64,000 bases of DNA from Saccharothrix carnea (GTDB taxonomy: Bacteria; Actinomycetota; Actinomycetes; Mycobacteriales; Pseudonocardiaceae): contig NZ_PYAX01000004.1 in assembly GCF_003014735.1 (NCBI RefSeq), positions 310,001 through 374,000 of the forward strand. The letters are read 5' to 3'. The notes under the pieces are model-generated. The model saw only the letters and a list, made by a program, of their open reading frames with translations, was not told the origin of the DNA and ran no database searches. Both the position numbers and the translations under genes were made by a program. Positions 5,789 to 25,485 of this stretch are shown piece by piece. Within the stretch, counting starts at the first letter, position 1, and every line of letters begins with the position of its first letter.

Positions 5789-6478
5789 GTGCAGGGCAAC
5801 TCCAGATCCTGGCCGGCCAACTGCTTCCGGTTGCTGCTGGTGGAGGACGACCGCGAGCTCGTGGAGTTGCTCGGCGCCGCGCTGCGCGACGAGGGGTACA
5901 CCGTGGACGTCGCGCTGGACGGCCAGCGCGGACTGCACCTCGGCCTGACCCGCCCCTACGACGTCGTGGTCATCGACCGGGGCTTACCGGCGCTCGACGG
6001 GCTGGACCTGCTGGTGCGCCTGCGGGCCAAGGCGGTGCGGGCGCGGGCGTTGATCCTCACCGCGCTGGGCACCGTGCACGACCGGATCGACGGCCTCGAC
6101 GCGGGCGCGGACGACTACCTGGTGAAGCCGTTCGACCTGGACGAGCTGAGCGCGCGGCTGCGGGCGCTGTGCCGTCGTGCGCTGGAACTGGCCGACGTGC
6201 TGCGGATCGGCGCCGGGCACCTCGACGTCGAGCAGCGGGAGGTGGTGCTGCCCGACGGCGGACGGGTGCCGCTCACCACCCGGGAGTTCACGCTGCTGCG
6301 CGTGCTGGCCACCTATCCAGAGACCGTGCACACGCGCGCGTCGTTGCGGCGGGTGGTGTTCCCGGACGCCTCGGCAACCTCCATTGTGGACACTTACGTG
6401 TACTACCTGCGCACCAAGATCGACCGTTCGGTGGTGCACACCGTGCAAGGGCTCGGTTACCGGTTGGGGGCGTTGTGA
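5789..6478 (+). CDS. OmpR/PhoB-type response regulator
   Basis: A 229-residue response regulator: receiver domain with the acidic pair in LLLVEDD, phosphoacceptor Asp63 (VVIDRGLP), switch Thr in LILTALG and the conserved lysine in VKPFDL; C-terminal winged helix with LTTREFTLLRVLA and the wing VHTVQGLGYRLG. It is coupled to the sensor kinase gene by a GTGA overlap. The leucine codon right after the phosphorylation site (5984-5986) is TTA, so translation probably needs the bldA-type tRNA. The GTG start has no strong Shine-Dalgarno, and an internal TTG at about 5832 is possible. Target genes are unknown; the adjacent ammonia-lyase operon is one candidate. Confidence 0.92.
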   Translation: MQGNSRSWPANCFRLLLVEDDRELVELLGAALRDEGYTVDVALDGQRGLHLGLTRPYDVVVIDRGLPALDGLDLLVRLRAKAVRARALILTALGTVHDRIDGLDAGADDYLVKPFDLDELSARLRALCRRALELADVLRIGAGHLDVEQREVVLPDGGRVPLTTREFTLLRVLATYPETVHTRASLRRVVFPDASATSIVDTYVYYLRTKIDRSVVHTVQGLGYRLGAL

Positions 6479-7740
6479 GTCGTTCGTGGGTCGAGGCGGA
6501 ACGTGCGGTCATCCGACGGGCACGCCTGCGGATCAGCGTGCTGGTCGCGCTGGCGATCACGGTGCTGGTCGCGTTCGTCGGCGGTATCGCCTACGCCGTG
6601 ATGGTGCACGCCCAGGAAGCGCAGGTGACGCGCGAGCTGCGGTACAACGCCCAGTTCGGCGCGCCGTCGACCCCGCCGGGCTGCACGTGGCTGTTCATCC
6701 TGGAAAACGGTGTCCTGGACGACGGCGTGCTGAAGGTGCCGCCCGGGTTCCCGCTGTTCGAGGACCTCGACGCGGTGGACGCGACCGGCGAGACGATCGA
6801 ACGCGCCCTCGAACGCAACGGCACGCAGTACCTGGTGCTGACCCGGCGCGGCCCGGCCGACCGCACGGTGCAGGCGGTGTTCGACACGCGCTACCAGCTC
6901 GCCGACCGGCGGCACCTGTTGCTGGCGCTGGGGATCGCGGAGGTCGGCGGCCTGCTCGCGGCGGCGCTGCTGGGCCTGTGCGTGGGTCGCGGCACGGTCG
7001 CGCCGCTGGCGGAGGCGTTGGCCCGGCAGCGCCGGTTCGTCACCGACGCGAGCCACGAGCTGCGGACGCCGATCGCGCGGGCGTACACGCGGGCGCAGCT
7101 GCTCGCCCGCTGGGCCAAGGCCGCGGACCTGCCCGACGACCACCGCGACGGCCTGGACAAGCTCGCCACCACCATCCGCGGTCTCGGTGACGTGGTGGAC
7201 GACCTGTTGCTGTCGGCACGGCTGAGCCGGCAGCCCGAGGACCTGACCGGTCGGTCGGTGGACCTGGCCGCGGTGGCGGAGGCCGCGGTGGCGACGGAGG
7301 AGGACCGGGCGGCCGAACGGCGGATCACGCTCACCGTGACCCGCCCGGACGGTCCGGTGGTCGTGCACGGCGTCGAGACCGCGTTGCGGCGCGCGGTGGA
7401 CGAGCTGCTGGCCAACGCGGTGCGCCACACCCCGGAGGGCGGCCGGATCGACGTGCTCCTCGGGCTGCGCGACGGGCGGGTCGAGCTGACCGTCGCCGAC
7501 ACCGGCGAGGGTTTCGACCCGGTGGAGGCGGACCGGCTGTTCGACCGGTTCCACCGCGGACCGGGCGGGCCGGAGCGGCGGTTCGGCCTGGGCCTGGCGC
7601 TGTTGCGGGAGATCGTGACGAGCCACGGCGGCACGGTGGAGGCGGTCGGCCACCCCGGCCAGGGCGCCCGGTTCACCCTGCGCCTACCGCTCGCCACCAC
7701 CACCGCCGAGGTCCGGGAGATCAGTACCGGCCCGCGGTGA
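6475..7740 (+). CDS. Sensor histidine kinase, partner of the upstream response regulator
   Basis: A 421-residue membrane kinase. Two membrane segments (about residues 20-42 and 150-172) flank a roughly 100-residue extracytoplasmic sensor with one cysteine (PPGCTWLF). The HisKA box SHELRTP has its His near residue 194; the catalytic domain shows N box ELLANAVRHTPEG, G1 DTGEGF and RFGLGLALLREIV. A recognisable HAMP linker is short or missing. The GTG start overlaps the regulator stop. The end overlaps the convergent ammonia-lyase gene by 20 bp. The signal is unknown. Confidence 0.9.
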   Translation: MSRSWVEAERAVIRRARLRISVLVALAITVLVAFVGGIAYAVMVHAQEAQVTRELRYNAQFGAPSTPPGCTWLFILENGVLDDGVLKVPPGFPLFEDLDAVDATGETIERALERNGTQYLVLTRRGPADRTVQAVFDTRYQLADRRHLLLALGIAEVGGLLAAALLGLCVGRGTVAPLAEALARQRRFVTDASHELRTPIARAYTRAQLLARWAKAADLPDDHRDGLDKLATTIRGLGDVVDDLLLSARLSRQPEDLTGRSVDLAAVAEAAVATEEDRAAERRITLTVTRPDGPVVVHGVETALRRAVDELLANAVRHTPEGGRIDVLLGLRDGRVELTVADTGEGFDPVEADRLFDRFHRGPGGPERRFGLGLALLREIVTSHGGTVEAVGHPGQGARFTLRLPLATTTAEVREISTGPR

Positions 7741-9217
7741 CCAGGTCCGCGGCCAGGCGGACGTCGGCGTCGAGCGGTCGGTCCGGGTCGACCGGCGCGA
7801 TGGCGTCGGCCAGCGCGTCCAGCAGCGCGGCGCACCGGGGCGCGGTCGGCCGCCGGCCACCCACGTGGACGGCCTGCCGCAGGCCCAGCGCCAGCGAACC
7901 GCACAGCAGCCGGAGCAGTTCGGCGAGGTCGTAGGAGCGCAGCGCGGCCTGGGTGCCGAACGGCACGACGTCCTGGTTGTGCAGGTTGGTCGGCAGGCTC
8001 TGGGTGCTGGCGGGCACCACGGCACGGCGGATCTCGGCGACGAACGCCGTCGTGGCCAGCTGCACGCCTTGCAGCCCGTGCTGCCGCCCGGGGCCGGCGG
8101 CCAGCATCGGCGGCAGGCCGGTGTTGCGGGCCGGGTCCACCAGCAGGTCGAGCTGCCGTTCGGCGAGGTTGCCCAGCGACGCGGTGACCATGGCCAGCAC
8201 GTCGGCGGCGAACGCGGCCGGTTGGCCGAAGAAGTTGCCGCCGTGCGCCACGAGGTCGTCGTCCGGGAAGAACAGCGGGTTGTCGCTGACACCGCCCAGA
8301 TCGGCCGTGACGACACCGTCGACGTAGCGCAACGCGTCCTCCGCCGCACCGAGCAGCTGCGGCGAGCACCGGAGGCTGTAGGGCTCCTGGAGGGCACGCC
8401 CGCCGCTCGGGACCGTGCCGACCAGCGTCGCCCGCATCCGGTCGGCGACGGTGATCGCGCCGGGGTGGCCGTACGCGGAGATCAGGCGTGGGTCGAGGAA
8501 TGCCGGGTCCGCACCCAGCAGGTCCACGAGCAGGCACGTGAGGTCCTGCACGGCGCGGTGCGAAGCACGCACGCTCGCCAACGCCAACGCCGTGGCGGCC
8601 GTCGTCACGGACGTGCCGTTGACGAGCGCCAACGCGTCACGGCCGTCGAGGGTGAGCGGGGTCAGCCCGGCCCGGCGCAGGGCCTCGTCGGCGGGCATCC
8701 GCTCCCCGTCCACGTAGGCGTGGCCGCGGCCGCGCAGCGCCTGGGTCGCGTAGGCGAGCGGGATGAGGTCGCCGCTCGCGCCGACCGAGCCGTAACGCGG
8801 GATCGCGGGCACGAACGTGGTCGCGAACATCGCCGCGAGCCCGTCCACGACGTGCGCGGACACCCCTGAAACGCCTTGGGCCAACGACCACGCGCGCACG
8901 AGCAGCGCGGCGCGGGCGATGTCGGCGGGCAGGTCGGGCCCTTGCCCGGCGCCGAGGTGTGCGAGGGTGTTGTCGCACTGGTCGGCCTCGTCCTCGCGGC
9001 CCGCGAAGCCGATGAGGGCGCCGAACCCGGTCTTGGCCCCGTAGACGGGGCGTTCGTCGTCGGCGAGCACGGCGCGCAGGTACTCGCGCCCCCGCTCGAC
9101 CCGGTCCCGAACCGGAGGGCTGATGAGCAGCGACAGCGGTGCCGCCGCACGGATGAGGTGGTCGCCGGCCAGCGGTGCGCCGAGGTCCACGGGGGCGTCG
9201 GTCACGGTGGTGGTCAC
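7721..9217 (-). CDS. MIO-dependent aromatic amino acid ammonia-lyase, tyrosine type suspected
   Basis: A 498-residue member of the HAL/PAL/TAL family. The Ala-Ser-Gly triad that cyclises to the MIO cofactor is in GSVGASGDLIPLAYA; other signatures are YGAKTGFGAL (catalytic Tyr), LALVNGTSV, YSLRCSPQ, SDNPLFF and GNFFGQPAAFAAD. At the specificity position the protein reads AHLGAGQG, which aligns to the His-Leu pair of Rhodobacter tyrosine ammonia-lyase, not to the Ser-His of histidine lyases or Phe-Leu of plant PAL. The likely reaction is therefore tyrosine to p-coumarate, although an aminomutase cannot be excluded. It is divergent from the six-gene operon starting at 9281, across a shared palindrome. 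Confidence 0.88.
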   Translation of the reverse strand: MTTTVTDAPVDLGAPLAGDHLIRAAAPLSLLISPPVRDRVERGREYLRAVLADDERPVYGAKTGFGALIGFAGREDEADQCDNTLAHLGAGQGPDLPADIARAALLVRAWSLAQGVSGVSAHVVDGLAAMFATTFVPAIPRYGSVGASGDLIPLAYATQALRGRGHAYVDGERMPADEALRRAGLTPLTLDGRDALALVNGTSVTTAATALALASVRASHRAVQDLTCLLVDLLGADPAFLDPRLISAYGHPGAITVADRMRATLVGTVPSGGRALQEPYSLRCSPQLLGAAEDALRYVDGVVTADLGGVSDNPLFFPDDDLVAHGGNFFGQPAAFAADVLAMVTASLGNLAERQLDLLVDPARNTGLPPMLAAGPGRQHGLQGVQLATTAFVAEIRRAVVPASTQSLPTNLHNQDVVPFGTQAALRSYDLAELLRLLCGSLALGLRQAVHVGGRRPTAPRCAALLDALADAIAPVDPDRPLDADVRLAADLVTAGRY

Positions 9218-9231
9218 CGCACCGACGGTAG

Positions 9232-9265
9232 GCAGCCGATCTCAGAGAGTTCTGAGATCGGCTGC
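9232..9265. promoter_or_regulatory. 34-bp perfect palindrome between divergent operons (operator)
   Basis: GCAGCCGATCTCAGA (9232-9246), spacer GAGT, then its exact reverse complement (9251-9265). It fills the 63-bp gap between the ammonia-lyase start (9217) and the first flavoprotein start (9281), 14-15 bases from each start codon. A symmetric site there can control both directions at once. No local gene encodes an obvious cognate repressor. Confidence 0.75.
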
Positions 9266-9280
9266 GTAGCTTCCTGGCTC

Positions 9281-10831
9281 ATGGCGCACGACTACCTGAT
9301 CATCGGAGCAGGACCGGCCGGGTTGCAGCTCGCCGCCCTGCTGGAACGCGACGGTCGCGATTACGCGGTCCTGGAACGCGGCTCCGGCCCGGGTACCTTC
9401 TTCACCCGCTACCCGCGGCACCGCACGCTCATCTCCATCAACAAGGTCCACTCCGGGTACACCGACCCGGAGCAGCGGCTGCGGATGGACTGGAACTCGT
9501 TGCTGTCCGACGACCCCGCGCTGCTGTTCACCCGCTACAGCGGCCGGTACTTCCCCGCCGCCGACGACCTGGTCCGCTACCTGGCCGATTTCGCCGCGGC
9601 CACCGGCGCCCGGGTCCACTACGACACCGAAGTCACCCGGATCTCCCGTGACGACGAGGGTTTCACCGTGCTCGACCGCGGTGGACGGACGTGGCGGGCC
9701 GCGCGGGTCGTCGTGGCGACGGGAGTTTCGCAACTCCACGAGCCACCCATCCCGGGCATCGAGCACGCCGAGCGGTACGACACCTTCGACACCGACCCGG
9801 AGTCGTTCACCGACCAACGGGTGCTGGTGATCGGCAAGGGCAACTCCGGCTTCGAGACCGCCGACTCCCTGGTGGAGCACGCGGCGGTCATCCACGTGGC
9901 CGGGCCGCACTCGGTGCGGCTGGCGTGGCAGACGCACTACGTCGGCCACCTGCGCGCGGTGAACAACAACTTCCTCGACACCTACCAGCTCAAGTCGGAG
10001 AACGCGGTCCTCGACGGCACGGTGGAGCTGATCGAGCCGCGGCCCGGCGGCGGGTTCCGCGTCCTGTTCCGGTACGCGCGCACGGCGGAGTCGTTGCGGG
10101 AACTGGAGTACGACCGGATCGTCGCGTGCACGGGGTTCCGGTTCGACGCCTCGGTCTTCGACGACACCTGCCGTCCGGCGCTGGTGATCGACGACCGGTT
10201 CCCCGAGCAGACGCCCGCCTACGAGTCGACCACCGTGCCCGGTCTGCACTTCGCGGGCACGCTCACCCAGCAGCGCGACTTCAAGAAGTCCACCAGCGGG
10301 TTCATCCACGGCTTCCGCTACGGCGTCCGGGCCCTGCACCGCATCCTCGCCGCACGCCACCACGGCACGCCGTGGCCGTCGACCGAGCTGGAGGCGTCAC
10401 CGGAGGCGATCGGTGACGCGCTGGTCGCCAGGGTGAACCGGTCGTCCGCGCTGTGGCAGCAGTTCGCGGTGATGGGCGACGTGGTGACGGTGTCCGGCGA
10501 CACCGCCCGCTACGAGGAGGAGGTGCCGGTGGCTTACGTCGCCGACGCCGGCCTCGGCCCGGCCGAGCACCGGTTCGTCGCGACCCTGGAGTACGGGCCG
10601 GACCACGACACCGTCGACCCGTTCGACATCTCGATCCCCCGCGTGGCGGAGAACGACGCGGCCAACGCGCAGGACGCGAGCTACCTGCACCCGGTGGTGC
10701 GCTACTACCGCGACGGCGCGCTCGCCGCGACCCACCACCTGGCGGAGAACCTGGAGAACCACTGGGACCTGCCCGCGGTGCACCAGCAGCCGCTGGCCGT
10801 GTTCGTGAAGGAATGCCTTGCCGGCGCGTGA
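9281..10831 (+). CDS. FOXRED2-like FAD/NAD(P)-dependent monooxygenase or oxidoreductase, copy 1
   Basis: A 516-residue flavoprotein with two dinucleotide folds: FAD site IIGAGPAGLQ at residues 7-16 and NAD(P) site VIGKGNSGFE near residue 185. The blocks FFTRYPRHRTLISINK and MDWNSLLSDD are characteristic of the subgroup that includes eukaryotic FOXRED2, distant from Baeyer-Villiger and ornithine hydroxylase types. It has no signal peptide. ATG 9281 is the first start after the palindrome. It is the promoter-proximal gene of a coupled operon and overlaps the ligase gene by 14 bases. Copy 2 at 12297 is closely similar along its whole length. The oxidised substrate is unknown; an aromatic acid or its thioester is a guess from context. 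Confidence 0.85.
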   Translation: MAHDYLIIGAGPAGLQLAALLERDGRDYAVLERGSGPGTFFTRYPRHRTLISINKVHSGYTDPEQRLRMDWNSLLSDDPALLFTRYSGRYFPAADDLVRYLADFAAATGARVHYDTEVTRISRDDEGFTVLDRGGRTWRAARVVVATGVSQLHEPPIPGIEHAERYDTFDTDPESFTDQRVLVIGKGNSGFETADSLVEHAAVIHVAGPHSVRLAWQTHYVGHLRAVNNNFLDTYQLKSENAVLDGTVELIEPRPGGGFRVLFRYARTAESLRELEYDRIVACTGFRFDASVFDDTCRPALVIDDRFPEQTPAYESTTVPGLHFAGTLTQQRDFKKSTSGFIHGFRYGVRALHRILAARHHGTPWPSTELEASPEAIGDALVARVNRSSALWQQFAVMGDVVTVSGDTARYEEEVPVAYVADAGLGPAEHRFVATLEYGPDHDTVDPFDISIPRVAENDAANAQDASYLHPVVRYYRDGALAATHHLAENLENHWDLPAVHQQPLAVFVKECLAGA

Positions 10832-12284
10832 CGCCGAGCCGTTCCCGCGCGCGGTGCTCGACGTGCTCGACGCCGCCGCGGACCGGCCGGTGTTCGAACA
10901 CGGCACGCGCGTGGTGACCGGAGCGGAGGTGCTGGACCTGGTCGCCCGGATCTCGACCGGTCTGCGCCGGGAAGGACTGGGCCCGGGTGACGGTGTCGCG
11001 CTCCTGCTCGGCGTGAACCCCGAGGCGTTCGCCACGGTCCTGGCCGCGCACGCGGTGGGAGCACGGGTTCTGGGCGTGCGGCCGGGGCTGCCCGACGAGC
11101 AGGTGCACCACCTGCTGAGCCTCGACATCACCGCGATCATCACCGACTCCGCCGTGCCCCGGACCGACCCCGCCCCGCGCACGCTCACCGTCGACAAGTT
11201 GCGCAAGACCCGTGCCGACGGCCCGCCCCGGTGCGACGGCAGGCCCGGTGACGTCGCCCGGCTCATCCACACCAGCGGCAGCACGGGCGTGCCCAAGGCG
11301 TGCGCCCAGACCTACGCGGCGATGACCGACGCGTGGGCCGCGCGACCGGACGCCTGGCCGCCCGCGATCCGCGAGCTGGCGTCCCGGCTGGAGCGGTACC
11401 TGGTGTTCGGGTCGCTGTCGAGCCAGGTGATGTCCGAGTACGCGGTGGTGGCGATCACCGCCGGCGGCACCGCGGTCGTCGCCGACCGGCCCGGGTTCCC
11501 CGACGCGATCACCCGCCACCGCGCCTCGGCGAGCGTGATCACCGTGCCCCGGTTGGTCAAGCTCGTCGCCGCCCAGCGCCGTGCCCCGGCCGACCTGTCG
11601 ACGTTGCGCGCCCTGATGGTGTCCGGGTCACCGCTGACCGCCGCCCGGCACCGCGAGGCGTTGGACGTGCTCGGACCGGTCGTGTTCCACGGCTACGGCC
11701 AGACCGAGACGGGCATGATCGCGATGGCGACCCCGGCCGACCCGCCCGGCACGGTGGGCCGACCACCGGCGGCGGTGCGGGTCGAGATCCGTGCGGCGGA
11801 CGGCACCCCGGTGCCGCCGGGGGTCGACGGCGAGCTGTTCGTCCGCACCCCGGCGCAGGCCGACGCGTACTGGGGCGACGCGGTGCGGTCGGCCGAGGTG
11901 TTCGCGGGCGGCTGGGTGCGCACCCGCGACCTGGGCCACTTCGACGCCGACGGCCACCTGCGCCTGACCGGCCGGACCAGGGACGTCGTCATCGTCAACG
12001 CGAACCTGCACTACGCGGGCCCGATCGAACGGGTCATCGCCGAGCACCCGGACGTCGCCGAGGCGTACGTGGTCGCCGTGCCCGACGAGGACACCGGCGA
12101 GGCGGTGCACGCGTTCGTGGTGCCCACCGGTGACCGCCCGCCCGACCTCGACGCGCTGCGCGCGCTGGTGACCGCCCGGCTGGGTGCCGCGTGCGCGCCG
12201 GTGCGGGTGACCGCGATCGCCGAACCGCCGCTGGCACCCAGCGGCAAACCGGACAAGCGCCTGCTGTCCCCCACCCGGACGTGA
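10818..12284 (+). CDS. AMP-forming acyl-CoA/aryl acid ligase
   Basis: A 488-residue ANL-superfamily enzyme. Motifs: phosphate-binding loop HTSGSTGVPKA, GYGQTETGM, hinge RTRDLGHFDADGHL, and the C-terminal catalytic lysine in PSGKPDKR. The segment VNANLHYAGPIE replaces the usual GYNVYPAEIE of ligases, and an early residue stretch around RPGLPDEQ is compact. Start TTG 10818 overlaps the flavoprotein by 14 bases; it keeps the normal N-terminal helix. Lying between two flavoproteins and opposite a tyrosine-lyase-like gene, it may activate p-coumarate or a derivative as adenylate or thioester. No carrier protein gene is nearby, so CoA is the more likely acceptor. Confidence 0.85.
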   Translation: MPARDAEPFPRAVLDVLDAAADRPVFEHGTRVVTGAEVLDLVARISTGLRREGLGPGDGVALLLGVNPEAFATVLAAHAVGARVLGVRPGLPDEQVHHLLSLDITAIITDSAVPRTDPAPRTLTVDKLRKTRADGPPRCDGRPGDVARLIHTSGSTGVPKACAQTYAAMTDAWAARPDAWPPAIRELASRLERYLVFGSLSSQVMSEYAVVAITAGGTAVVADRPGFPDAITRHRASASVITVPRLVKLVAAQRRAPADLSTLRALMVSGSPLTAARHREALDVLGPVVFHGYGQTETGMIAMATPADPPGTVGRPPAAVRVEIRAADGTPVPPGVDGELFVRTPAQADAYWGDAVRSAEVFAGGWVRTRDLGHFDADGHLRLTGRTRDVVIVNANLHYAGPIERVIAEHPDVAEAYVVAVPDEDTGEAVHAFVVPTGDRPPDLDALRALVTARLGAACAPVRVTAIAEPPLAPSGKPDKRLLSPTRT

Positions 12285-12296
12285 AGGAGAAAAGTC

Positions 12297-13877
12297 GTGT
12301 CCAGCGAGGTTTCCACGGACTGTCTCGTGATCGGCGCCGGCCCGGCCGGGCTGCAGGCGTCCTACCTGCTCACCCGCTCCGGGCGGGACCACCTGGTGCT
12401 GGAGGCCGGTGACGCCCCCGGCACGTTCTTCACCCGCTTCCCCCGCCACCGCACCCTGATCTCCATCAACAAGCCCAACACGGGGTGGGACGACCCCGAG
12501 CTGAACCTGCGCACCGACTGGAACTCGCTGCTGTCCGACGACCCGTCGCTGCTGTTCACCGGCTACACGCCGCGCTACTTCCCGCACGCCGACGACCTGG
12601 TCCGCTACCTGGCCGACTTCGCCGCGAAGCACGACCTGCCGATCCGCTACGGCACGTCGGTGGTGTCGGTGACCCGCCCGGACGACCAGTTCGTCGTGCA
12701 CGACCAGCACGGCCGCACCTACCGGGCAGGGCGGCTCATCGTCGCCACCGGTGTGTCCCGGCCGTACGTGCCGCCGATCGAGGGAGTGAAGCACGCCGAG
12801 CGGTACGACGACGTGTCGGTGGACCCGGCCGACTTCACCGGGCAGAAGGTGCTGATCATCGGGCGCGGCAACTCGGCGTTCGAGACCGCCGACAACCTGA
12901 TCGAGACCGCGTCGGTCATCCACGTCGCCGGACCCGGCTCGTTGAAGCTGGCGTGGCAGACCCACTTCGTCGGCCACCTGCGCGCGGTGAACAACAACTT
13001 CCTCGACACCTACCAGCTCAAGTCGCAGAACGCGCTGCTGGACGGGCGGGTGCTCGACATCCGCCGCGACGGTGACTCCTACCTGGTGCGGGTCAGCTTC
13101 CAGCGCGTGCAGGAACGGGTGAAGGAGATCCGCTACGACCGGGTGATCCTGGCGACCGGCTTCCGGTTCGACGCGTCGATCTTCGCCGCCGGGTGCCGCC
13201 CCCGGTTGACGATCAACGACCGGTTCCCGGACCAGACCGCCGCCTGGGAGTCGGTGAACGTGCCCGACCTGTTCTTCGCGGGCACCATCACGCAGGCCAG
13301 GGACTTCAAGAAGTCGACGAGCGGGTTCATCCACGGCTTCCGCTACGGCGTCCGCGCCCTGCACCGCATCCTGGAGCACCGCTACCACGGCGTGCCGTGG
13401 CCGACCCGGGACCTCGCCCGGGACGCGGTGACCGACACCGTGATCGAACGGGTGAACCGCACCTCCGCGCTGTGGCAGCTGTTCGCGTTCCTGGCGGACG
13501 CCGTGCTGATCGGGTCGGACGGCACCCTGCGCTACGCCGAGGAGGTGCCGTTGGCGCACCTGCACGAGGCGGTCGGCCGGGGCGACTTCGGCGACGTCGA
13601 GTCCTACCTGGCGGTGACGCTGGAGTACGGCGCGGACCACGACCGGGTCAACCCGTTCGACGTCACCGCGGGCCGGACGTCCCAAGAGGACACCAGCGGG
13701 CTGGACGGCCGCTACCTGCACCCGGTGGTGCGGCACTTCCGCGCCGGGGTGCTGCTCGCCGAGCACCACCTGACCGAGAACCTGGAGAACGAGTGGGACA
13801 GCGAGGACGTACACCGGGCGCCGCTGCGGGCGTTCCTGCACACCCGGCTCGCCCCGGCCGGAGTGGGGTCGCCGTGA
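12297..13877 (+). CDS. FOXRED2-like FAD/NAD(P)-dependent monooxygenase or oxidoreductase, copy 2
   Basis: A 526-residue paralogue of the 9281 protein. FAD site VIGAGPAGLQ near residue 12, NAD(P) site IIGRGNSAFE near residue 187, and the same FFTRFPRHRTLISINK and TDWNSLLSDD blocks. The C-terminal segments GLDGRYLHPVVR and HHLTENLENEWD correspond to those of copy 1. GTG 12297 is preceded by GAAGGAG. It follows the ligase by 12 bp and overlaps the FMN oxidase as GTGA. Keeping two full copies around one ligase suggests either sequential oxidation of one scaffold or a heteromer. Confidence 0.85.
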   Translation: MSSEVSTDCLVIGAGPAGLQASYLLTRSGRDHLVLEAGDAPGTFFTRFPRHRTLISINKPNTGWDDPELNLRTDWNSLLSDDPSLLFTGYTPRYFPHADDLVRYLADFAAKHDLPIRYGTSVVSVTRPDDQFVVHDQHGRTYRAGRLIVATGVSRPYVPPIEGVKHAERYDDVSVDPADFTGQKVLIIGRGNSAFETADNLIETASVIHVAGPGSLKLAWQTHFVGHLRAVNNNFLDTYQLKSQNALLDGRVLDIRRDGDSYLVRVSFQRVQERVKEIRYDRVILATGFRFDASIFAAGCRPRLTINDRFPDQTAAWESVNVPDLFFAGTITQARDFKKSTSGFIHGFRYGVRALHRILEHRYHGVPWPTRDLARDAVTDTVIERVNRTSALWQLFAFLADAVLIGSDGTLRYAEEVPLAHLHEAVGRGDFGDVESYLAVTLEYGADHDRVNPFDVTAGRTSQEDTSGLDGRYLHPVVRHFRAGVLLAEHHLTENLENEWDSEDVHRAPLRAFLHTRLAPAGVGSP

Positions 13878-14968
13878 GCACCGGGCCCCTCGCCGAGCTG
13901 CACGACAAGGCCCGCGCGGTGCTCGACCCCGTGCACTACGACTACTACGCGGGCGGTGTCGGCGACGAGGTCGTGCTCGGGGAGAACGAGGCGGCGTTCC
14001 GGCGGCTGGCCCTGCTGCCGAGGGTGTTGCGCGGTGCGCCGACCCGCGACCTCGGTGTCGACCTGCCCGGCGGGCACCTCGACCTGCCGGTGCTGGTCGC
14101 GCCGACCGCGTTCCACCGGCTCGCGCACCCCGAGGGCGAGTTGGCGACGGCACGGGCCGCGGCGGCGGCGGGAACGGTGCTGGTCTCCGGCGTGGCCTCG
14201 ACGGTGGCGATCGGCGACGTGGTGGCGGCGGCACGGGCCGTGCGCGCCGAGGCGTCGGTGTGGTTCCAGCTCTACCCGCAGCCCGACCAGGACGTGACGG
14301 CGTGCCTGGTGGAGCGGGCGGAACGGGCGGGCTGCACGGCGCTGGTGGTGACCGCCGACTCGCCGGTCTTCGGCCGGCACCGCCGCGACGCCGAGCACGG
14401 TTTCCACGACCTGCCGGCCGGGCTCGCGGCGGAGAACATGCGGGACCTGCCGGGCGGGCCGCCGGGAGGTGTCCGGGACATCGGGATGTCGCCGTCGGTG
14501 TCGTGGCGGGACTTGGACCGGCTGCGGGAGCTGACGTCGTTGCCGTTGTGGCTCAAGGGGGTGCTCCACCCGCGTGACGCGGTGCTGGCGGTCGAGCACG
14601 GGGTGGCCGGGGTCGTGGTGTCCAACCACGGTGGCCGCCAGCTCGACCTCGTGCCGGCGGCGGTGGAGGCGTTGCCCGCGGTGGTGGACGCGGTCGCCGG
14701 ACGGGTGCCGGTGCTGCTGGACGGCGGGGTGCGCGGCGGCGGTGACGTCGCGGTGGCGCTCGCGCTGGGCGCGGCGGCGGTCGGTGTCGGCAGGCCGGTG
14801 CTGTGGGGCCTGGCGGCGGACGGCGAGGCCGGGGTGTCCCGGGTGCTCGCCGTGCTGCGCGACGAGGTGGACCACGTCCTCGCGCTGTGCGGCGGACGTG
14901 ACCTCGCCGACCTCACCCCGGACCTGGTCGTCAGCCGCGGGACGGGGGTGTCCGGGCGGTGTGGTTGA
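13874..14968 (+). CDS. FMN-dependent alpha-hydroxy-acid oxidase/dehydrogenase
   Basis: A 364-residue TIM-barrel protein of the glycolate/lactate/hydroxymandelate oxidase family. Landmarks: YDYYAGGVGDEVVLGENEAAF at the start of the barrel, WFQLYPQPD, the FMN lysine in PLWLKGVL, the catalytic SNHGGRQLD (His as base, Arg for the carboxylate) and VLLDGGVRGGGDV. It would oxidise an L-2-hydroxy acid to the 2-oxo acid; in natural product clusters relatives act on 4-hydroxymandelate. GTG 13874 overlaps the previous stop, and the end overlaps the P450 start by 10 bases. With an aromatic ammonia-lyase nearby an aryl hydroxy acid is a plausible substrate, not proven. Confidence 0.87.
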   Translation: MSTGPLAELHDKARAVLDPVHYDYYAGGVGDEVVLGENEAAFRRLALLPRVLRGAPTRDLGVDLPGGHLDLPVLVAPTAFHRLAHPEGELATARAAAAAGTVLVSGVASTVAIGDVVAAARAVRAEASVWFQLYPQPDQDVTACLVERAERAGCTALVVTADSPVFGRHRRDAEHGFHDLPAGLAAENMRDLPGGPPGGVRDIGMSPSVSWRDLDRLRELTSLPLWLKGVLHPRDAVLAVEHGVAGVVVSNHGGRQLDLVPAAVEALPAVVDAVAGRVPVLLDGGVRGGGDVAVALALGAAAVGVGRPVLWGLAADGEAGVSRVLAVLRDEVDHVLALCGGRDLADLTPDLVVSRGTGVSGRCG

Positions 14969-16350
14969 CCGGGTTGCTCGCCGCCGCGGTGGTGCTGACC
15001 GCGCCGCGCTGGCTGCCGGCGCGGGTGGTCGCCCTGCGCGCCAAGATGTTCGAGAAGGTCAACGGGGACAACGCGATCACGTTCCCGAACGCCGTCGTCG
15101 GCCCGGACCGGTTCCAGGAGGTCTACGGCCACCCCGCGGCGAACGGCCGCAGCCGGGGCGCCGGGCTGTCCGACCTGTTCTGGTACTGGCTCTCCCCCGG
15201 CCCCGAGGTGCACCAGGAGCACCTGGAGGCCGGTCCGCGTTACGACGACGTCGCACGCACGACGCGCGCGCTGCTCGCCGGTCCGGGTGACGAGCTGTCG
15301 GCGTTGGCGGCCCGCTGCGCCGGGCGGGTGCTCGACGAGCGGGTCACCGGTCGGGTCACGCTGGTGCGACTGCGGGACCTGATGATGCCGGTGTGGGCGG
15401 AGTACTTCCACGAACTGGTCTTCGGCGAGCCGTGCCCCCGCAAGGCACGCGACCTGATCGTGGGGCACGCCGACGACGTGGTGACGTCGTTGAAGTGCAC
15501 CGGCCTGCGCCACCCGGCCCGCCGCGCCCGGCTGACCCGCTACCTGGCCCGCCGGGTCGCGGCGGGCGACGTGCGGCGGCCGTTGCCCGCGAGCCTGTCG
15601 CCGACCGAGCAGGTGCACTACCTGCAGGGCACGTTCTTCAACACCGGCGTGGTGCAGATGTCCGAGGCGATGGCGCACGTGCTGCTGGCGCTGGCGCAGC
15701 ACCCGGAGGCGGCGGCGCGGCTGGCGCGTGACGACCGCTACTTCGGCCACGTGCTGGACGAGACCATGCGGCTGTACCCGCTGTTCGGCATCGCGCACCG
15801 CATCGCCACCGCCGAGATCGCGCTGGACGAGCGGACCACGCTGCCCGCCGGGTCGGTGCTGTGCTTCAGCTACCCCGACTACCACGCCACCGGCTACGCG
15901 CGGCCGGACGTGTTCGACCCGGACCGCTGGGACCACGTCGGGGCCCGCGAGGCGCACCACATCCCGTTCGGCGTGGCGGCCAACCGGCCGTGCCCGGCGT
16001 GGCGGCTGTCGCCGTTGGCGCTGCGCGCGGCGACGCGCGAGGTGCTCCGCCGGGTCACGCTGCACTCCACGGTCACGCACACCCGGTCGATGCCGAGCCG
16101 GGGGCCGTGCCTGCTGGTCCGGGTGGACCAGCCGCTGCCACCGGGTCGCCTGGCCGTGCTCGGCGCGCTGCTGCGCGTGCGGGACCGGTGGGAGGACGTG
16201 TGGCGCAGCGTGGTCCAGCTCGTGCTCGGCACGGTCATGGTCCTGCACGCCCACCGCCTGCGCCTGGCCGGGCGGTACTTCGACACGCACGACACCCAGG
16301 GTCGTCCGTTGCGGCACCGGCCGCCTTCCCCACAGGAGATCACCGAGTGA
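14959..16350 (+). CDS. Membrane-anchored cytochrome P450 with atypical I helix
   Basis: A 463-residue P450-like protein. An N-terminal hydrophobic helix (WLTGLLAAAVVLTAPRWL) suggests membrane anchoring, unusual for bacteria. The ExxR motif is present (ETMRLYP), and the heme loop IPFGVAANRPCPAWR holds the cysteine ligand. The I helix reads FFNTGVVQMSEA where most P450s have [AG]Gx[DE]T, so the acid-alcohol proton relay is missing. A C-terminal tail of about 90 residues follows the heme loop. This pattern is known for P450s that use peroxide or catalyse non-hydroxylating reactions, but may also mean altered function. It overlaps both neighbours (10 and 4 bases) and is clearly part of the operon. 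Confidence 0.82.
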   Translation: MWLTGLLAAAVVLTAPRWLPARVVALRAKMFEKVNGDNAITFPNAVVGPDRFQEVYGHPAANGRSRGAGLSDLFWYWLSPGPEVHQEHLEAGPRYDDVARTTRALLAGPGDELSALAARCAGRVLDERVTGRVTLVRLRDLMMPVWAEYFHELVFGEPCPRKARDLIVGHADDVVTSLKCTGLRHPARRARLTRYLARRVAAGDVRRPLPASLSPTEQVHYLQGTFFNTGVVQMSEAMAHVLLALAQHPEAAARLARDDRYFGHVLDETMRLYPLFGIAHRIATAEIALDERTTLPAGSVLCFSYPDYHATGYARPDVFDPDRWDHVGAREAHHIPFGVAANRPCPAWRLSPLALRAATREVLRRVTLHSTVTHTRSMPSRGPCLLVRVDQPLPPGRLAVLGALLRVRDRWEDVWRSVVQLVLGTVMVLHAHRLRLAGRYFDTHDTQGRPLRHRPPSPQEITE

Positions 16351-17630
16351 ACCAGATCCAGTTCGCGTTGCGGGTGTTCGCCGCGCTGGCGGTCGTGCTC
16401 GCGGCGACGACGTTGTGCGGGCGCCTCGCCATGCTGGTCAAGCAGCCCAGGGTCGTCGGCGAGATGGTCGCCGGTGTCCTGCTCGGGCCCGCCCTGCTCG
16501 GCGCGGTGGCACCCGGCGTGCAGGCCCAGATCTTCCCGGCGGACGTCAAGGACACCCTCTACGTGCTGAGCACGATCGGGTTGACGTTCTACATGTTCCT
16601 GGTCGGGTCGTCGCTCGACCACAGCCTGGCCAGCGGGCAGCGGATGCGGCGGGCGACGGCGCTGGCGGTGTCGGGCATCGTGCCGACGTTCGCGCTGGGC
16701 GCGGCCGCGGCGGCGCTGTTCTTCGGCACGCTCAGCCCGGACGGCACCAGCCGGTGGGAGTTCATGCTGTTCGTCGGCGGCGCGCTGTCGATCACCGCGT
16801 TCCCCATGCTGGCCCGGATCCTGCAGGAGCGCGGTATCGCGAACACGCCCATCGGCGGCCTGACCCTGGTCGCGGCGGCGATCGACGACGCGGCGGCGTG
16901 GGTGATCCTGGCGGTGATCATCGCGGTGGCGGCGGCGGGCAGCCCGTTCGACGCGCTGGTCACGGTGGCGGGCGCGGCGGTGTTCGCGGTGCTGATGCTC
17001 ACGGTGGGGCGCGGCCTGTTCGCCAGGCTGGGCGCGCGGGTGGAGCGGGAGGGCAAGCTGAGCCGGGACGTGATGGCGCTCGTCCTGCTCGTCGTGCTGC
17101 TGGCCGGGTGGTTCACCGACTACATCGGCGTGTTCTCGGTGTTCGGCGGGTTCATCACGGGCCTGGCGATGCCGCAGTCGCAGGTCGTGCGCCGGGAGCT
17201 GCAGACCCGGTTGACGGACCTGAACTCCATCCTGCTGCTGCCGGTGTTCTTCGCGTTCAGCGGGCTCAACACGGAGGTGTCCGGGTTCGGCGCGGGCGGC
17301 GCACTGTGGTGGCCGCTCGCGGTGATCATGGCGGCCGCGTTCGCGGGCAAGTACCTCGGTTGCGCGGCGGTCGTGCGCGCCCAGGGCTTCTCGTGGCGTT
17401 ACGCGTCGGCGGTCGGCGGGCTGATGAACGCGCGCGGGCTGATGATCCTGATCTTCATCAACATCGGTCTCGCGTACGGCCTGGTGACCCCGGAGCTGTT
17501 CGCGATCCTGGTGGCCGTCGCGATCGTCACGACCGCCGCCGCGATGCCGATCTACCGGGCGTCGCTGCCCGAGAACGTGGAGCGCGCGGCGACCGACGTC
17601 GAGCCGGTGCCGGCCGTGAACCGCTCCTGA
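16347..17630 (+). CDS. Cation/proton antiporter, CPA2 (KefB/NapA-like)
   Basis: A 427-residue integral membrane protein with about 12 hydrophobic segments and the monovalent cation:proton antiporter 2 pattern: KQPRVVGEMVAGVLLGP near the N-terminus, FMLFVGGALSITAFPML, and AAAIDDAAAWVILA, which holds the paired aspartates of the transport site. There is no TrkA-N/RCK domain. GTG 16347 overlaps the P450 stop, with AGGAG nine bases upstream. Its place at the end of the oxidative operon suggests that it manages pH or cation stress or exports an acidic product; relatives at the end of biosynthetic clusters are often annotated as resistance or export genes. Confidence 0.87.
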   Translation: MNQIQFALRVFAALAVVLAATTLCGRLAMLVKQPRVVGEMVAGVLLGPALLGAVAPGVQAQIFPADVKDTLYVLSTIGLTFYMFLVGSSLDHSLASGQRMRRATALAVSGIVPTFALGAAAAALFFGTLSPDGTSRWEFMLFVGGALSITAFPMLARILQERGIANTPIGGLTLVAAAIDDAAAWVILAVIIAVAAAGSPFDALVTVAGAAVFAVLMLTVGRGLFARLGARVEREGKLSRDVMALVLLVVLLAGWFTDYIGVFSVFGGFITGLAMPQSQVVRRELQTRLTDLNSILLLPVFFAFSGLNTEVSGFGAGGALWWPLAVIMAAAFAGKYLGCAAVVRAQGFSWRYASAVGGLMNARGLMILIFINIGLAYGLVTPELFAILVAVAIVTTAAAMPIYRASLPENVERAATDVEPVPAVNRS

Positions 17631-18046: not shown

Positions 18047-19365
18047 ATGACCAGCCGACCACTGTTCCACTGCGCCGACGTCGCGGTGCTGCGCGCGCCG
18101 GTGCACCCGGCCGCACTCGCCGCCGGACTGCCCGCGGCGGACGACGCGCCCGCCGCCGGGGTGCGGCTGCTGGCGGCCGACCCGCTGGTTCGGGAGGCGA
18201 TCTCGGTGTCCAGCCCGACACTCCCCCACCGGCTGGACACCCTGCTCGACGGGGCACCGAACGGCCCCGCACCGAGCGGATCGACGCCGAACGACGCGAC
18301 ACCGGACAGCCCGGCACCAAGCCGGGCGACACCGCACCACGCGGCCCTGGGCGGAGCGACGCCGGACGGCTCGGCACCGAGCGGCTCGGCATCAGGCGGA
18401 GCGATGCCGAGCGGAGCGGCACCGGGCGGAGCGATGCCCAGCACTGCCGACCTGCGGCGGGCGGTGCGGGCGTTGACGAGCTACCGGCTGCGGATGGCCA
18501 CCCGTGCCACGCCGTTCGGGCTGATGGCCGGTGTGGCGACCGACGTGTCCCGCGAACTCGTCGCCGTGCGGGACGACCTCGCGCGTTACGCGGCACTGCC
18601 GTTGGGGCAGGGGCGTGCGGCGCTGACCGCCGTGTGCGAACGGATGCGCGCGCTGGCACCGGGCGACCGGCCGGTCCAGGTCGACCTGGCGCTGGACGCC
18701 GACGTCGTGCTGCCCCGCGCGGTCGCCGACGAAGCCGAACGCGTGGCGGAGCTGCTGTGGCGGCTCTCGCCACGCCAACCGGCGACGGCCTCCTTGCGCC
18801 AGTACCACAACGACTTCCTCGAGCGGTACGGCCAGGGCAGGCTGGTCGGGTTGCGGGAACTGCCCGACCCGGACATCGGGCTCGGCGCACCGGCCGGCTG
18901 CCGGATGCCGCCCACGCCCCGGTTCCGCCGCCCGGAGCCCGAGCAGGACGGCGACCGGGACCGGGTGCTCGCCGGACTCGCCCAGGAAGCGGTGCCGGCC
19001 GGTGAGCCCGAGGTGGTGCTGACCGACGACCACCCGCTGCTGACGGCACCTGCCCGGCACGCGGTTCGGCCGCGGCTGACGGTGCGGCCCCGAGCCGCGA
19101 CGGGACGGCACCTGCCCGGTGGCGAATGGCTGTACGCCTCGGTGTACAGCTCGGCCAAGCGGCAGGACGAGCTGCTGCGGACCGTGCCCGCGCTGGTGGA
19201 GGGCCGCGCGGTCGACCGCTGGTTCTTCCTGCGCTACGGCATCCCGACCACCACCTCCGGCTGCGGTTCCACGGCTCGCCCGCCGCCCTCGCCGCGGACG
19301 TCCTGCCGCGGCTGACGTCGTGGGCGGCGGAGCTGCGCGACAGCGGGATGGTCCGGCGGCGGCCG
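18047..19365 (+). pseudogene. Broken LanB lantibiotic dehydratase
   Basis: The frame from ATG 18047 encodes the LanB N-terminal domain (RLRMATRATPFGLMAGV, QYHNDFLERYGQGRLVGL). After about residue 325 it jumps directly to the start of the C-terminal elimination domain (GGEWLYASVY, RWFFLRYG), so roughly 400 residues of the glutamylation domain are absent. At about 19241-19244 a one-base loss shifts the frame: expected RYGDPDHHLRLRF continues in the next frame (DPDHHLRLRFHGSPAAL, then LTSWAAELRDSGMV) while the original frame stops at 19315. The elimination domain then ends after about 50 residues. Full LanB proteins have about 1000 residues. A 195-bp minisatellite interrupts the N-terminal part. 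A sequencing error could explain the frameshift, not the missing parts. Confidence 0.82.
18251..18445 (+). repeat. 15-bp minisatellite (13 units) encoding pentapeptides
   Basis: Thirteen consecutive imperfect 15-bp units inside the broken dehydratase encode pentapeptides of the form xAPxG (GAPNG, PAPSG, STPND ... AMPSG, AAPGG, AMPST). The array separates two segments that are adjacent in normal LanB proteins (SPTLPHRLDTLL and LRRAVRALTSYRLRM). It indicates slippage expansion in a gene under little constraint. Confidence 0.8.
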
Positions 19366-23474: not shown

Positions 23475-24716
23475 ATGGACCGACAAACACCCGCGACGGC
23501 GTTCTGGATCCTGCTCGCCGTCGTGCTGATCGCCGTGTTCCTGCTGGTGCGCCAACACCGGACCACCCGTGCGTTACGGGTGCGGGCCGAACGGGCCGAG
23601 AACTGGGCACGGGCCCGGGCCGACGAGGAGCGACACCTGGTCGACGCCCGGCTGCCCGCCCTGGCCGAGTCGCTGGCCCACCGGCCCGTCGAGGTGCCCG
23701 GAGCGAGGAGCCCGGAAGCGGCCGAGAGCCACGAACGGGTGCTCGCGCAGTTCGCCGACTCCGTCCGGCAGGCGACCGAGCGGGGCGAGCAGTCGGCCCG
23801 CGCCACGCTGAAGTCGATGATGCGCGCGGTGCAGAGCCTGTCCAACGAGCAGCAGGTCGCCATCTCGGCCATGCAGGAGCGGCACGACGACCCGGACGTG
23901 CTGGCCGGCCTGATGCGCATCGACCACATGAACTCCCAGCTCAACCGGCGCGCCCAGGCCACCGCGGTGCTCTGCGGCTCGTGGCCGGGGCAGCAGCGGT
24001 CGGCGTCGCCGCTGACCGACGTGGTGCGCGGCGCCACCTCGCGGATCCGGGACTACCTTCGGGTCAACCTCCCGGCCGAGTCCGACGTCGCGGTGGTCAG
24101 CCGCGCGGTCGAGCCGGTCGTGCTGGCCGTGGCCGAGCTGCTCGACAACGCCGCCCGGCACTCGCCGCCCAACACCAGCGTCGAGGTCAACTTCCAGCAG
24201 GCGCACAACGGCATGGTCGTGATGATCGACGACGGCGGTGTCGGCATGACCGTCGAGGAGCTGCACCGCGCGGCCCGGCTGCTGGCCGGGGACGGCGGCA
24301 GCGACATCAACCGCCTCGGCGACCCGCCGCAGGTCGGTTTCGCGGTCATCGGCGTGCTGGCCCAGCGCTACGGCTTCCGCGTCTCGGTGGACACGCGCTC
24401 GCCGTACGGCGGTGTGCGCGCGGTGGTGTTCCTGCCGACCGAGCTGCTCACGCGGGTCAGCAAGCCCACCATGCCCGACAACGCCGTCGCGCTGCCACCC
24501 ACGCCGCGGCCGACCGGGGCCGTGGACGACACCGTGCTGGGGCGCACACCCGGCGGCCTGCCCAGACGACGGCGGACCCAGCCCGCCGACCAGGGCACGC
24601 CGCCGGCACCGGCCGACCAGCGGATCGCGACCGGGCTGGCCGCCTGGAAGCGCGGGACCGAGTCGGGCCGGGCCACCACCCCGCCGCCTGTCGCTGAAGG
24701 GAACACCCAGGCATGA
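23475..24716 (+). CDS. cvnA: Conservon sensor-kinase-like protein CvnA
   Basis: A 413-residue membrane protein: one N-terminal membrane helix (residues 9-27), a coiled-coil region (about 40-150), a DHp-like helix with RIDHMNSQLNRR, and a GHKL ATPase domain (ELLDNAARHSPP, IDDGGVGMT) followed by a proline-rich tail of about 90 residues. CvnA proteins of Streptomyces conservons have this layout and form a membrane complex with CvnB, C and D that resembles eukaryotic G-protein receptor systems. ATG 23475 has GAGGAATT in front. ATGA overlap with cvnB. Confidence 0.9.
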   Translation: MDRQTPATAFWILLAVVLIAVFLLVRQHRTTRALRVRAERAENWARARADEERHLVDARLPALAESLAHRPVEVPGARSPEAAESHERVLAQFADSVRQATERGEQSARATLKSMMRAVQSLSNEQQVAISAMQERHDDPDVLAGLMRIDHMNSQLNRRAQATAVLCGSWPGQQRSASPLTDVVRGATSRIRDYLRVNLPAESDVAVVSRAVEPVVLAVAELLDNAARHSPPNTSVEVNFQQAHNGMVVMIDDGGVGMTVEELHRAARLLAGDGGSDINRLGDPPQVGFAVIGVLAQRYGFRVSVDTRSPYGGVRAVVFLPTELLTRVSKPTMPDNAVALPPTPRPTGAVDDTVLGRTPGGLPRRRRTQPADQGTPPAPADQRIATGLAAWKRGTESGRATTPPPVAEGNTQA

Positions 24717-25135
24717 ACACTTTGGGTTGGATGCTCGACGACGCCCTGCAGATGCCGGAGACGCGGCACGCCGTCCTGCTGTCGGCGGACGGGTTGCTGA
24801 TGGCGCACTCCACCGGCATCGGCCGCGACGACGCCGAACGGCACGCCGCCGCGATGTCCGCGCTGCAGTCGCTGGCCCGCGCCACCGCCGAGTTCTGCGG
24901 TCAGACCGGCGCGGACTGGCAGCAGACGGTCAGCGAGTTCGTCGGCGGCTTCGTCTTCCTGGCCGCCGCCGGGCCGGGCGCGTACCTGGCCGTGTCGGCG
25001 ACCGACCGGGTCGACATGGAGGCGGTGTCCTTCCGGATCCAGGAACTCGTCCAGCGGCTGGGCAAGGAACTCACCAGCCCGCCCCGGCAGGCTGAACCCG
25101 GCCCGCCGCGGCGGGGTGCGGGCAGCACCGCGTGA
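24713..25135 (+). CDS. cvnB: Conservon roadblock/LC7 protein CvnB
   Basis: A 140-residue roadblock/LC7 domain protein (ETRHAVLLSADGLLMAHSTG, SALQSLARATAEFCG, GGFVFLAAAGPGAYLAV). In conservons and in MglB-type systems such proteins regulate the partner small GTPase (here CvnD). The C-terminal 20 residues are a Pro/Arg-rich tail. It overlaps cvnA by ATGA and cvnC by GTGA. Confidence 0.92.
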   Translation: MNTLGWMLDDALQMPETRHAVLLSADGLLMAHSTGIGRDDAERHAAAMSALQSLARATAEFCGQTGADWQQTVSEFVGGFVFLAAAGPGAYLAVSATDRVDMEAVSFRIQELVQRLGKELTSPPRQAEPGPPRRGAGSTA

Positions 25136-25485
25136 GCGGCGACCGGCACCTGCGTGGCCTGGTGCGGCCGTACGTGGTGACCGGCGGCCGGGCACACGCC
25201 AGCCGCAACACCTTCGACGCCGTCACGGTCGTGATCGCCACCCGCGAGCAGGTCTCCGGGCTGTCGCCGGAGAAGAAGCGGCTGATGGAGCTGTGCCGCG
25301 GCGGCGCGCTGTCGGTGGCCGAGATCGCCGCGCACCTCTCGCTGCCGATCAGCGTGACCAAGGTGCTGCTGTCCGACCTGGTCGACAGCGGGCACATCGC
25401 CACCCACGCCGCGGTCTCGCACACCGCCCGCCCCGACATGAAGCTGCTGAAGGACGTGCTCGATGGCCTCCGTGCTCGCCTCTGA
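25132..25485 (+). CDS. cvnC: Conservon DUF742 protein CvnC
   Basis: A 117-residue DUF742 protein, the third member of conservons. It has an opening LRGLVRPYVVTGGRA and a winged-helix-like half (CRGGALSVAEIAAHLSLPISVTKVLLSDL). Its role is unknown; DNA or partner binding is suggested by the fold. GTG 25132 overlaps cvnB; its end overlaps cvnD by 23 bases. Confidence 0.92.
   Translation: MSGDRHLRGLVRPYVVTGGRAHASRNTFDAVTVVIATREQVSGLSPEKKRLMELCRGGALSVAEIAAHLSLPISVTKVLLSDLVDSGHIATHAAVSHTARPDMKLLKDVLDGLRARL

Follow-up and report, generated by a model that had tools for sequence, protein, structure and literature searches.

Several bacterial pathways combine an aromatic amino acid lyase with an adenylating ligase of the ANL type, among them those for bagremycin/ferroverdin, for flexirubin and for the naringenin of Streptomyces clavuligerus. 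A related chemistry is found within the genus Saccharothrix: the published account of the saccharomicin (sam) cluster of Saccharothrix espanaensis, describes 38 genes in ~47 kb—ten of them glycosyltransferase genes—together with the tyrosine ammonia-lyase Sam8, the hydroxylase Sam5 and a caffeoyl-taurine aglycone, which is a cinnamoyl amide (PMC3469384). The cassette of interest here lies in the 8.9 Mb genome of Saccharothrix carnea, in a 64,000-nucleotide stretch that we refer to as the window (positions 310,001–374,000 of contig NZ_PYAX01000004.1, assembly GCF_003014735.1). Like sam, the cassette has a lyase predicted to convert tyrosine to p-coumarate; unlike sam, it includes no glycosyltransferase gene. 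With the bagremycin/ferroverdin, flexirubin and naringenin pathways it shares the pairing of aromatic lyase and ANL ligase, but it differs from them in that there is no ketosynthase among its genes.

On balance, we think it probable that the cassette is a specialised-metabolite unit consisting of two modules under the control of its own two-component system. Module A comprises (i) a 4-methylideneimidazole-5-one (MIO) aromatic ammonia-lyase, predicted to be a tyrosine ammonia-lyase and encoded on the reverse strand (7721–9217; PF00221, 435 bits), (ii) flavoprotein A, a monooxygenase-like Pyr_redox_3 protein of 516 amino acids (aa) (9281–10831; PF13738, 154 bits), and (iii) an ANL adenylating ligase resembling amide bond synthetases (10818–12284; PF00501, 175 bits, and PF13193). 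Module B comprises (i) flavoprotein B, 526 aa (12297–13877; PF13738, 173 bits), (ii) a 2-hydroxy-acid oxidase-type enzyme dependent on flavin mononucleotide (FMN) (13874–14968; PF01070, 383 bits), (iii) a membrane-anchored, non-canonical cytochrome P450 (14959–16350; PF00067, a weak 45 bits against a cut-off of 22.8), and (iv) a CPA2-type antiporter, the proposed exporter (16347–17630; PF00999, 148 bits). All genes but the lyase lie on the forward strand, as do the two regulatory genes on the far side of the lyase: an OmpR-type response regulator of 229 aa (5789–6478; PF00072 and PF00486) and a sensor histidine kinase (6538–7740, start approximate; PF00512 and PF02518), the 3' end of which overlaps that of the lyase by 20 bp.

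An earlier note on this DNA, made by a model from the sequence alone, had listed the seven genes from lyase to antiporter; all are present in the open reading frame (ORF) listing of the window where the note placed them. Pfam confirms their families, with the two flavoproteins, tentatively labelled FOXRED2-like in the note, assigned to Pyr_redox_3. The listing offers longer upstream starts for some genes; 9281, 13874 and 16347 are the note's starts, at which the genes are coupled. The note's proposal that the six forward genes form one operon is borne out by their junctions, which are, in order, an overlap of 14 bp, a gap of 12 bp, and overlaps of 4, 10 and 4 bp. The single operon thus holds for the window; in other genomes, the two modules can be found apart. 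The note's extent was too small, since the response regulator and histidine kinase (5789–7740) go with the cassette. Its statement that no polyketide synthase (PKS), nonribosomal peptide synthetase (NRPS) or carrier protein gene is present stands for those window ORFs covered by the domain scan, which passed over various small ones.

Whether the genes stay together elsewhere was examined in 23 other genomes of the genus, using flavoprotein B as a query and, in addition, tblastn with 17 proteins of the window. Ten of the 23 carry all seven genes in the same order, one lacks only flavoprotein A at the locus, and three have the halves of the cassette at separate loci; a further five have the second half only (judged from a single close flavoprotein, with the lyase searched in part of these genomes), and the remaining four have no close flavoprotein. 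The nearest named relatives at the locus are Saccharothrix records with a P450 86–90% identical to that of the window. This co-conservation argues against a chance grouping of the genes; its absence was one of the two findings that the earlier note had named as speaking against its proposal, the other being a described cluster that holds the set (see below).

A P450 profile scan of a named genome collection extends the comparison, yielding 331 stretches that encode P450 relatives, in Saccharothrix, Lentzea, Streptomyces, Nocardia, Nonomuraea, Actinomadura and others. The best 80 of these, which lean towards the window's kin, are our named loci; gene counts are for the 70 whose flanks each measure 6 kb or more (ten have shorter flanks), with genes taken from a codon-usage caller and start codons therefore approximate. 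The FMN oxidase and the P450 are present in all 70, a flavoprotein in 69, the ligase in 64 and the lyase in 45. The lyase and a second flavoprotein travel together: both are found in 41 loci, and the lyase with one flavoprotein in four, while the loci without a lyase have one flavoprotein (23 loci), none (one) or two (one, L126, where a piece of lyase is cut by the contig end). A response regulator is encoded in 46 loci and a kinase in 47, with both together in 46. Transport genes alternate: 51 loci carry a CPA2 antiporter, 12 a carrier of the major facilitator superfamily (MFS; identity from one member scanned) in its place, seven neither, and none both. Leaving aside core genes, the two-component pair and the MFS carrier, no cluster of neighbouring genes recurs in more than 13 of the 80 named loci, most of these neighbours having no assigned family.

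Judged from its layout in other genomes, the cassette is composed of two separable modules. In the Actinosynnema-type genomes G004, G012 and G014, the three of the genus set with separate loci, the lyase, flavoprotein A and ligase are grouped far from flavoprotein B, the FMN oxidase and the P450; in G054, G198 and G454 (Nonomuraea basaltis), the same three genes lie apart from the P450 locus. Flavoprotein A also adjoins the lyase in the split loci L156–L158, and G037 has all parts of the cassette at one place, yet in another gene order. Among 394 genomes of the class, the P450 occurs in 13 and the flavoprotein in 18, these 13 included, and nine genomes have a lyase at E ≤ 1e-150. All seven genomes with a lyase above 900 bits also have the P450 and two strong flavoproteins; the remaining pair of lyases, at 705 and 609 bits, come from genomes that lack both. 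Co-occurrence of lyase and P450 gives a Fisher p of 6e-12 with seven lyases or 2e-10 with nine, values that ignore phylogeny. Because B occurs without A, but A without B was not seen in this sample, we regard B as the core and A as a feeder.

On the P450 tree, the 80 rows of which comprise 79 named loci plus the window's own, four changes of the lyase label are needed, two of which stem from lyase-free rows on truncated contigs (L125 and L130) that fall inside the Streptomyces clade; this leaves two lyase-bearing clades, which differ in gene order: a Pseudonocardiaceae clade of 21 rows, among them a single record titled Nocardia, and a Streptomyces clade of 29. In Actinophytocola oryzae (L068, 5866–8907), the ligase and flavoprotein B form a single ORF of 1013 aa.

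The next question is what the ligase makes. Its best solved relatives are amide bond synthetases—McbA of the marinacarboline pathway (6sq8/6h1b; 206 bits), then ShABS (8pyy/8ppp; 165 bits)—ahead of feruloyl-CoA synthetase (137 bits) and 4-coumarate:CoA ligase (4CL; 98 bits) in a comparison by score rather than by a tree with coenzyme A (CoA) ligases. A profile of the ligase family gives the same order (McbA 374 bits, ShABS 315, FadD8 266, feruloyl-CoA synthetase 246, 4CL 169). The A8 loop, usually of SGGEN type in such enzymes, is IVNA in the window ligase, similar to the IVEA of McbA and ShABS; the McbA chain has Glu where the window ligase has N394. The amide bond synthetase class is described in PMC10804368 and PMC6282839. 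The ANL family named in the earlier note stands. Of the products that the note suggested, the CoA ester does not have precedence: an amide is at least as likely, because the best-scoring solved relatives are amide bond synthetases, and amide formation is plausible. That the enzyme is nonetheless a true 4CL, and the product a modified acid or ester derived from coumaroyl-CoA, is a possibility we hold as less likely than not: the catalytic lysine, K477, is invariant (32/32) and two CoA ligases are among the relatives, but both amide synthetases outscore these directly and with the family profile, and the A8 loop is not of the usual type.

The lyase and flavoprotein A genes are separated by 63 bp, and so the divergent lyase does share a control region with the operon, as the earlier note had it. 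This region contains a perfect palindrome whose 15-bp arms flank a 4-bp spacer (9232–9265, reading alike on both strands), which we propose as the shared operator of two divergent promoters; its conserved core, TCTCAGA-N4-TCTGAGA (9240–9257), recurs upstream of the cassette in relatives. A −10-like element lies 9 bp from the core on either side: TACCGT on the reverse strand (9225–9230), with the GTG start of the lyase 7 bp further on in leaderless geometry, and TAGCTT on the forward strand (9267–9272), with the ATG start of the six-gene operon 8 bp further on. The layout was compared across 50 loci that carry a lyase, 49 of them named loci and one that of the window, with up to two mismatches tolerated in the core. 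In all 50, a TANNNT box is found 8–9 bp from the core on both sides (at 9 bp on 99 of 100 sides), that on the operon side being TAGCTT in 44. All 50 also have a possible start codon—ATG, GTG or TTG, 20–24 bp from the core—5–8 bp, mostly 7–8 bp, past the box on both sides. Since the start codon sits where transcription should begin, the arrangement reads as a divergent promoter pair, both members apparently leaderless and the palindrome occupying the −35 position. A scan of the control region for the sigma-70 consensus found no promoter, as would be expected in the absence of a −35 box.

In the Saccharothrix sp. NRRL B-16314 locus (L066, 5655–5828), flavoprotein A is absent, and the operator, −10-like box and ATGGCGCA start are kept in front of the ligase, as if the flavoprotein gene had been deleted; the right-hand start codon is not that of a called gene, the first called gene being the ligase.

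How does the motif relate to the two-component genes? At up to two mismatches, 46 of the 70 named loci have both the motif and the two genes, none has the genes only, two have the motif only and 22 have neither; the two motif-only loci are incomplete, the flank of L078 holding just the end of the regulator and L126 starting at a contig end. The operator is unique in the genome of the window (G000) at up to one mismatch. At the same threshold, 14 of 16 genomes searched contain a match (G125 and G178 have none), and a reversed control pattern matches in none of the 16; G003, G037, G054 and G198 have an extra copy outside the cassette. Where the modules are split (G054, G198 and G454), the motif is present at the lyase locus with 0–1 mismatch, and a variant with 1–2 mismatches lies 43–52 bp before flavoprotein B at the P450 locus; in the Actinosynnema-type genomes it is found at the lyase locus and not at that of the second module. 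A further copy occurs in G195, a genome with no match to the lyase or P450: here, an exact motif (L176, 6194–6211) lies 22 bp upstream of the start of a regulator 57% identical to that of the window, and after which comes a kinase with 42% identity to that encoded in the window. Near this motif, a small membrane protein resembles, by eye, one beside a spare motif copy in L175, a likeness that hints at an older regulon of this regulator family.

Because the motif tracks the two-component genes, and because the related regulator in L176 carries an exact copy, these data point to the response regulator as the binder of the palindrome. Control of the cassette hence seems to lie with its own two-component system, acting at a single DNA site common to both promoters, and this regulatory architecture is well supported by comparison. 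It is also conceivable that a repressor, with its gene in another part of the genome, occupies the palindrome, the two-component system being a mere neighbour: OmpR-type regulators often bind direct repeats, and repressors, too, commonly use one operator across two promoters. We consider this unlikely, given that the motif is present in all 46 loci with the two-component genes, that 22 of the 24 loci without both genes also lack it (the other two being truncated), and that the related regulator has its copy just 22 bp from its own start.

Returning to the enzymes, flavoproteins A and B are paralogues, as the earlier note had recognised, with ~60% identity. The two nucleotide-binding motifs are intact across 49 aligned sequences of A, B and their kin. 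Two candidate classes were rejected. Firstly, Baeyer-Villiger/group B flavin monooxygenases have the fingerprint FxGxxxHxxx(W/Y), and the column nearest its His is variable here (L in 20, T in 13 and H in 10 of the 49). Secondly, the bacillithiol disulfide reductase Bdr/YpdA has a Cys in its first GxGxxG motif, where A17 is found in 48 of the 49 and Gly in one. Fold searches singled out no one function, and the matches listed barely covered flavoprotein B past about residue 401; the flavoprotein profile gave weak, general matches against solved structures, and the open-access literature yielded nothing on FOXRED2 in connection with a biosynthetic gene cluster. The FMN oxidase has the catalytic His, Arg and Lys expected of FMN-dependent 2-hydroxy-acid oxidases, with D162, K228, H252 and R255 invariant in all 21 aligned members.

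The membrane anchor that the earlier note had given the P450 is recovered as a predicted N-terminal helix (residues 2–34; model pLDDT 89.5). The heme ligand C345 is conserved in 45 of 45 sequences, and E268 and R271 of the ExxR motif in 44 of 45 each. At the helix I positions of the acid-alcohol pair, set by eye against helix I of P450cam, all 45 read V232-Q233, and the enzyme thus appears to lack the canonical O2-activating pair. CYP152 peroxygenases have Arg-Pro in helix I; the window P450 has N228-T229 there (an equivalence set by eye), for which reason we rejected that class, and CYP175A1, CYP17A and others match the window P450 as well as or better than CYP152 enzymes do. The P450 profile gave weak, general matches among solved structures. 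A recoded in-frame TGA in three P450 matches was also considered and dropped: that in L030 (G037) is an ordinary stop at the gene end, and those in G312 and G171 are presumed alike. The role of the acid-alcohol pair is described in PMC9112060. The antiporter falls below the NCBIfam TIGR00932 cut-off (136.9 against 238.3 bits).

Taken together, the cassette probably turns tyrosine into an oxidised, exported compound of the coumaric acid type; the chemistry is what we infer from the gene families. In the proposed sequence of events, a stimulated histidine kinase would lead the response regulator to bind the palindrome core (9240–9257). With the palindrome in the −35 place of both promoters, as the layout shows, the lyase and the operon would be induced together. 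In module A, the lyase would deaminate L-tyrosine to p-coumaric acid; the ANL enzyme would adenylate the acid and pass it on to an acceptor, for which an amine is likelier than CoA, and flavoprotein A may oxygenate the acid or its conjugate. Further oxidation would fall to three module B enzymes: the second flavoprotein, the FMN oxidase and the unusual P450. The FMN oxidase would release H2O2, which, speculatively, the P450 could use, given that its usual oxygen-activation residues are absent. The CPA2 antiporter, or the MFS carrier in other genomes, would then export the product.

Several observations weigh against this picture. With stricter matching, motif and two-component genes coincide less well: at up to one mismatch, the operator is found in 43 of the 46 loci with the genes (genes only in three, motif only in two, neither in 22), and the exact operator in just 20 of the 46 (genes only in 26, with two and 22 as before). 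The operator also occurs, at up to one mismatch, in 69 of the 394 class genomes, 60 of them without a P450 match, as against 25 genomes for the reversed control. In five genomes of another family (f34 g59; L169–L173), an exact palindrome at about position 6130–6420 of each stretch precedes an unrelated, secreted-looking protein of 575–587 aa that looks alike in all five. In some genomes, module B is present without a tyrosine lyase: 20 of 27 genomes with a lyase-free locus (L085 left out) have weaker lyases only (at most 276 bits), and so module B must use another substrate there. The other seven have a stronger lyase elsewhere, which adjoins flavoprotein A in G454 and does not in G432, G438 and G446; G433, which agrees with G014 in contig and position, is apparently that genome again, and there the lyase does adjoin flavoprotein A. 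Module B loci also have unlike neighbours. Both L061 and L062 include sulfotransferase-type genes (PF17784), while L141 encodes a DUF6282 protein next to two dehydrogenases, one for aldehydes and one a zinc alcohol dehydrogenase. In Saccharothrix coeruleofusca (L085, 2–5755), the locus has no ligase, and the product of a nearby NRPS gene combines condensation, adenylation and carrier domains with a luciferase-like monooxygenase domain. Such neighbours mean that the chemistry may vary between lineages or be catabolic. Lastly, lyase selectivity and ligase acceptor alike are assigned from distant similarity and from residue roles in other enzymes.

Were the cassette a catabolic or detoxification operon, its two-component system would sense an aromatic compound, its antiporter or MFS carrier would move it, and flavin and heme enzymes would break down a CoA thioester made by the ligase. 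Two-component control would suit such a system, ANL enzymes are often CoA ligases, and the dehydrogenases of L141 lie near the core. Yet the seven genes include no thiolase, enoyl-CoA hydratase, aldolase or ring-cleavage dioxygenase family, and no further neighbour cluster in the named loci exceeds the 13-of-80 level given above, with the same limit on the families assigned. A tyrosine lyase, moreover, makes an aromatic acid instead of consuming one, and the best solved relatives of the ligase are amide synthetases. We regard a catabolic role as quite unlikely. The specialised-metabolite reading can be taken further, to a pathway common among actinomycetes: a dedicated two-component regulon with one operator per module would serve a CoA-independent route from tyrosine to a coumaroyl amide, and the FMN oxidase would supply H2O2 to a new membrane P450 of peroxygenase type; in this full form, we would call it a long shot.

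As to the lyase, the earlier note's assignment as an aromatic amino acid lyase holds, and tyrosine is the probable substrate. The MIO triad (A147-S148-G149) is invariant in all 16 aligned members, as are H87-L88 and N414-Q415-D416. The best solved relative is 2o6y (247 bits), which we take to be the tyrosine lyase of Rhodobacter sphaeroides although the record is titled a putative histidine ammonia-lyase; 2o78 is next. H87-L88 align with H-L in 2o6y, whereas 2o78 reads F-L, and we assume that the H-L pair and NQD are selectivity residues of tyrosine type. The enzyme is thus likely a tyrosine ammonia-lyase. It scores far below the cut-offs of the models for BagA/FevW (235 bits against 1000) and FlxA (236 against 700). 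A histidine ammonia-lyase feeding a urocanate-based pathway, as the first-placed NCBIfam HutH models (362 and 351 bits) and the titles of several PDB relatives would have it, is very improbable, since neither score reaches the cut-off of its model (524 and 539), 2o6y as the nearest solved structure is taken to be a tyrosine lyase, and H-L and NQD stand in place of the S-H and QED of 1gkm.

The earlier note had found that the gene combination matched no pathway known to it; likewise, we found no described cluster matching the cassette in the open-access literature, as far as its accessible text goes, cluster databases and subscription papers being outside that scope. PKS, NRPS and carrier genes are the usual core genes of cluster detection. 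As the cassette is short, has none of these genes in the window and has widespread P450 kin, a common metabolite may be overlooked. The predicted one-site regulon would offer a direct handle on the product, through activation of the response regulator. For three of the enzyme families, moreover, searches of solved structures turned up no closely related characterised protein: the ~520-aa flavoproteins, the P450 lacking the acid-alcohol pair and the ligase resembling amide synthetases.

Downstream of the cassette, the window contains a 422-aa ORF (18047–19315) whose matches to lantibiotic dehydratases (PF04738 and PF14028) cover part of the N-terminal region and a short stretch of the C-terminal one; it appears to be what is left of a longer gene. 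Another P450 gene (21924–23102) follows a glutamate-decarboxylase-like gene. The window also has a conservon-like run (23475–28550), consisting of a kinase-type ATPase, a roadblock protein, a DUF742 protein, a small GTP/ATP-binding protein, an unmatched ORF and a P450 (27330–28550).

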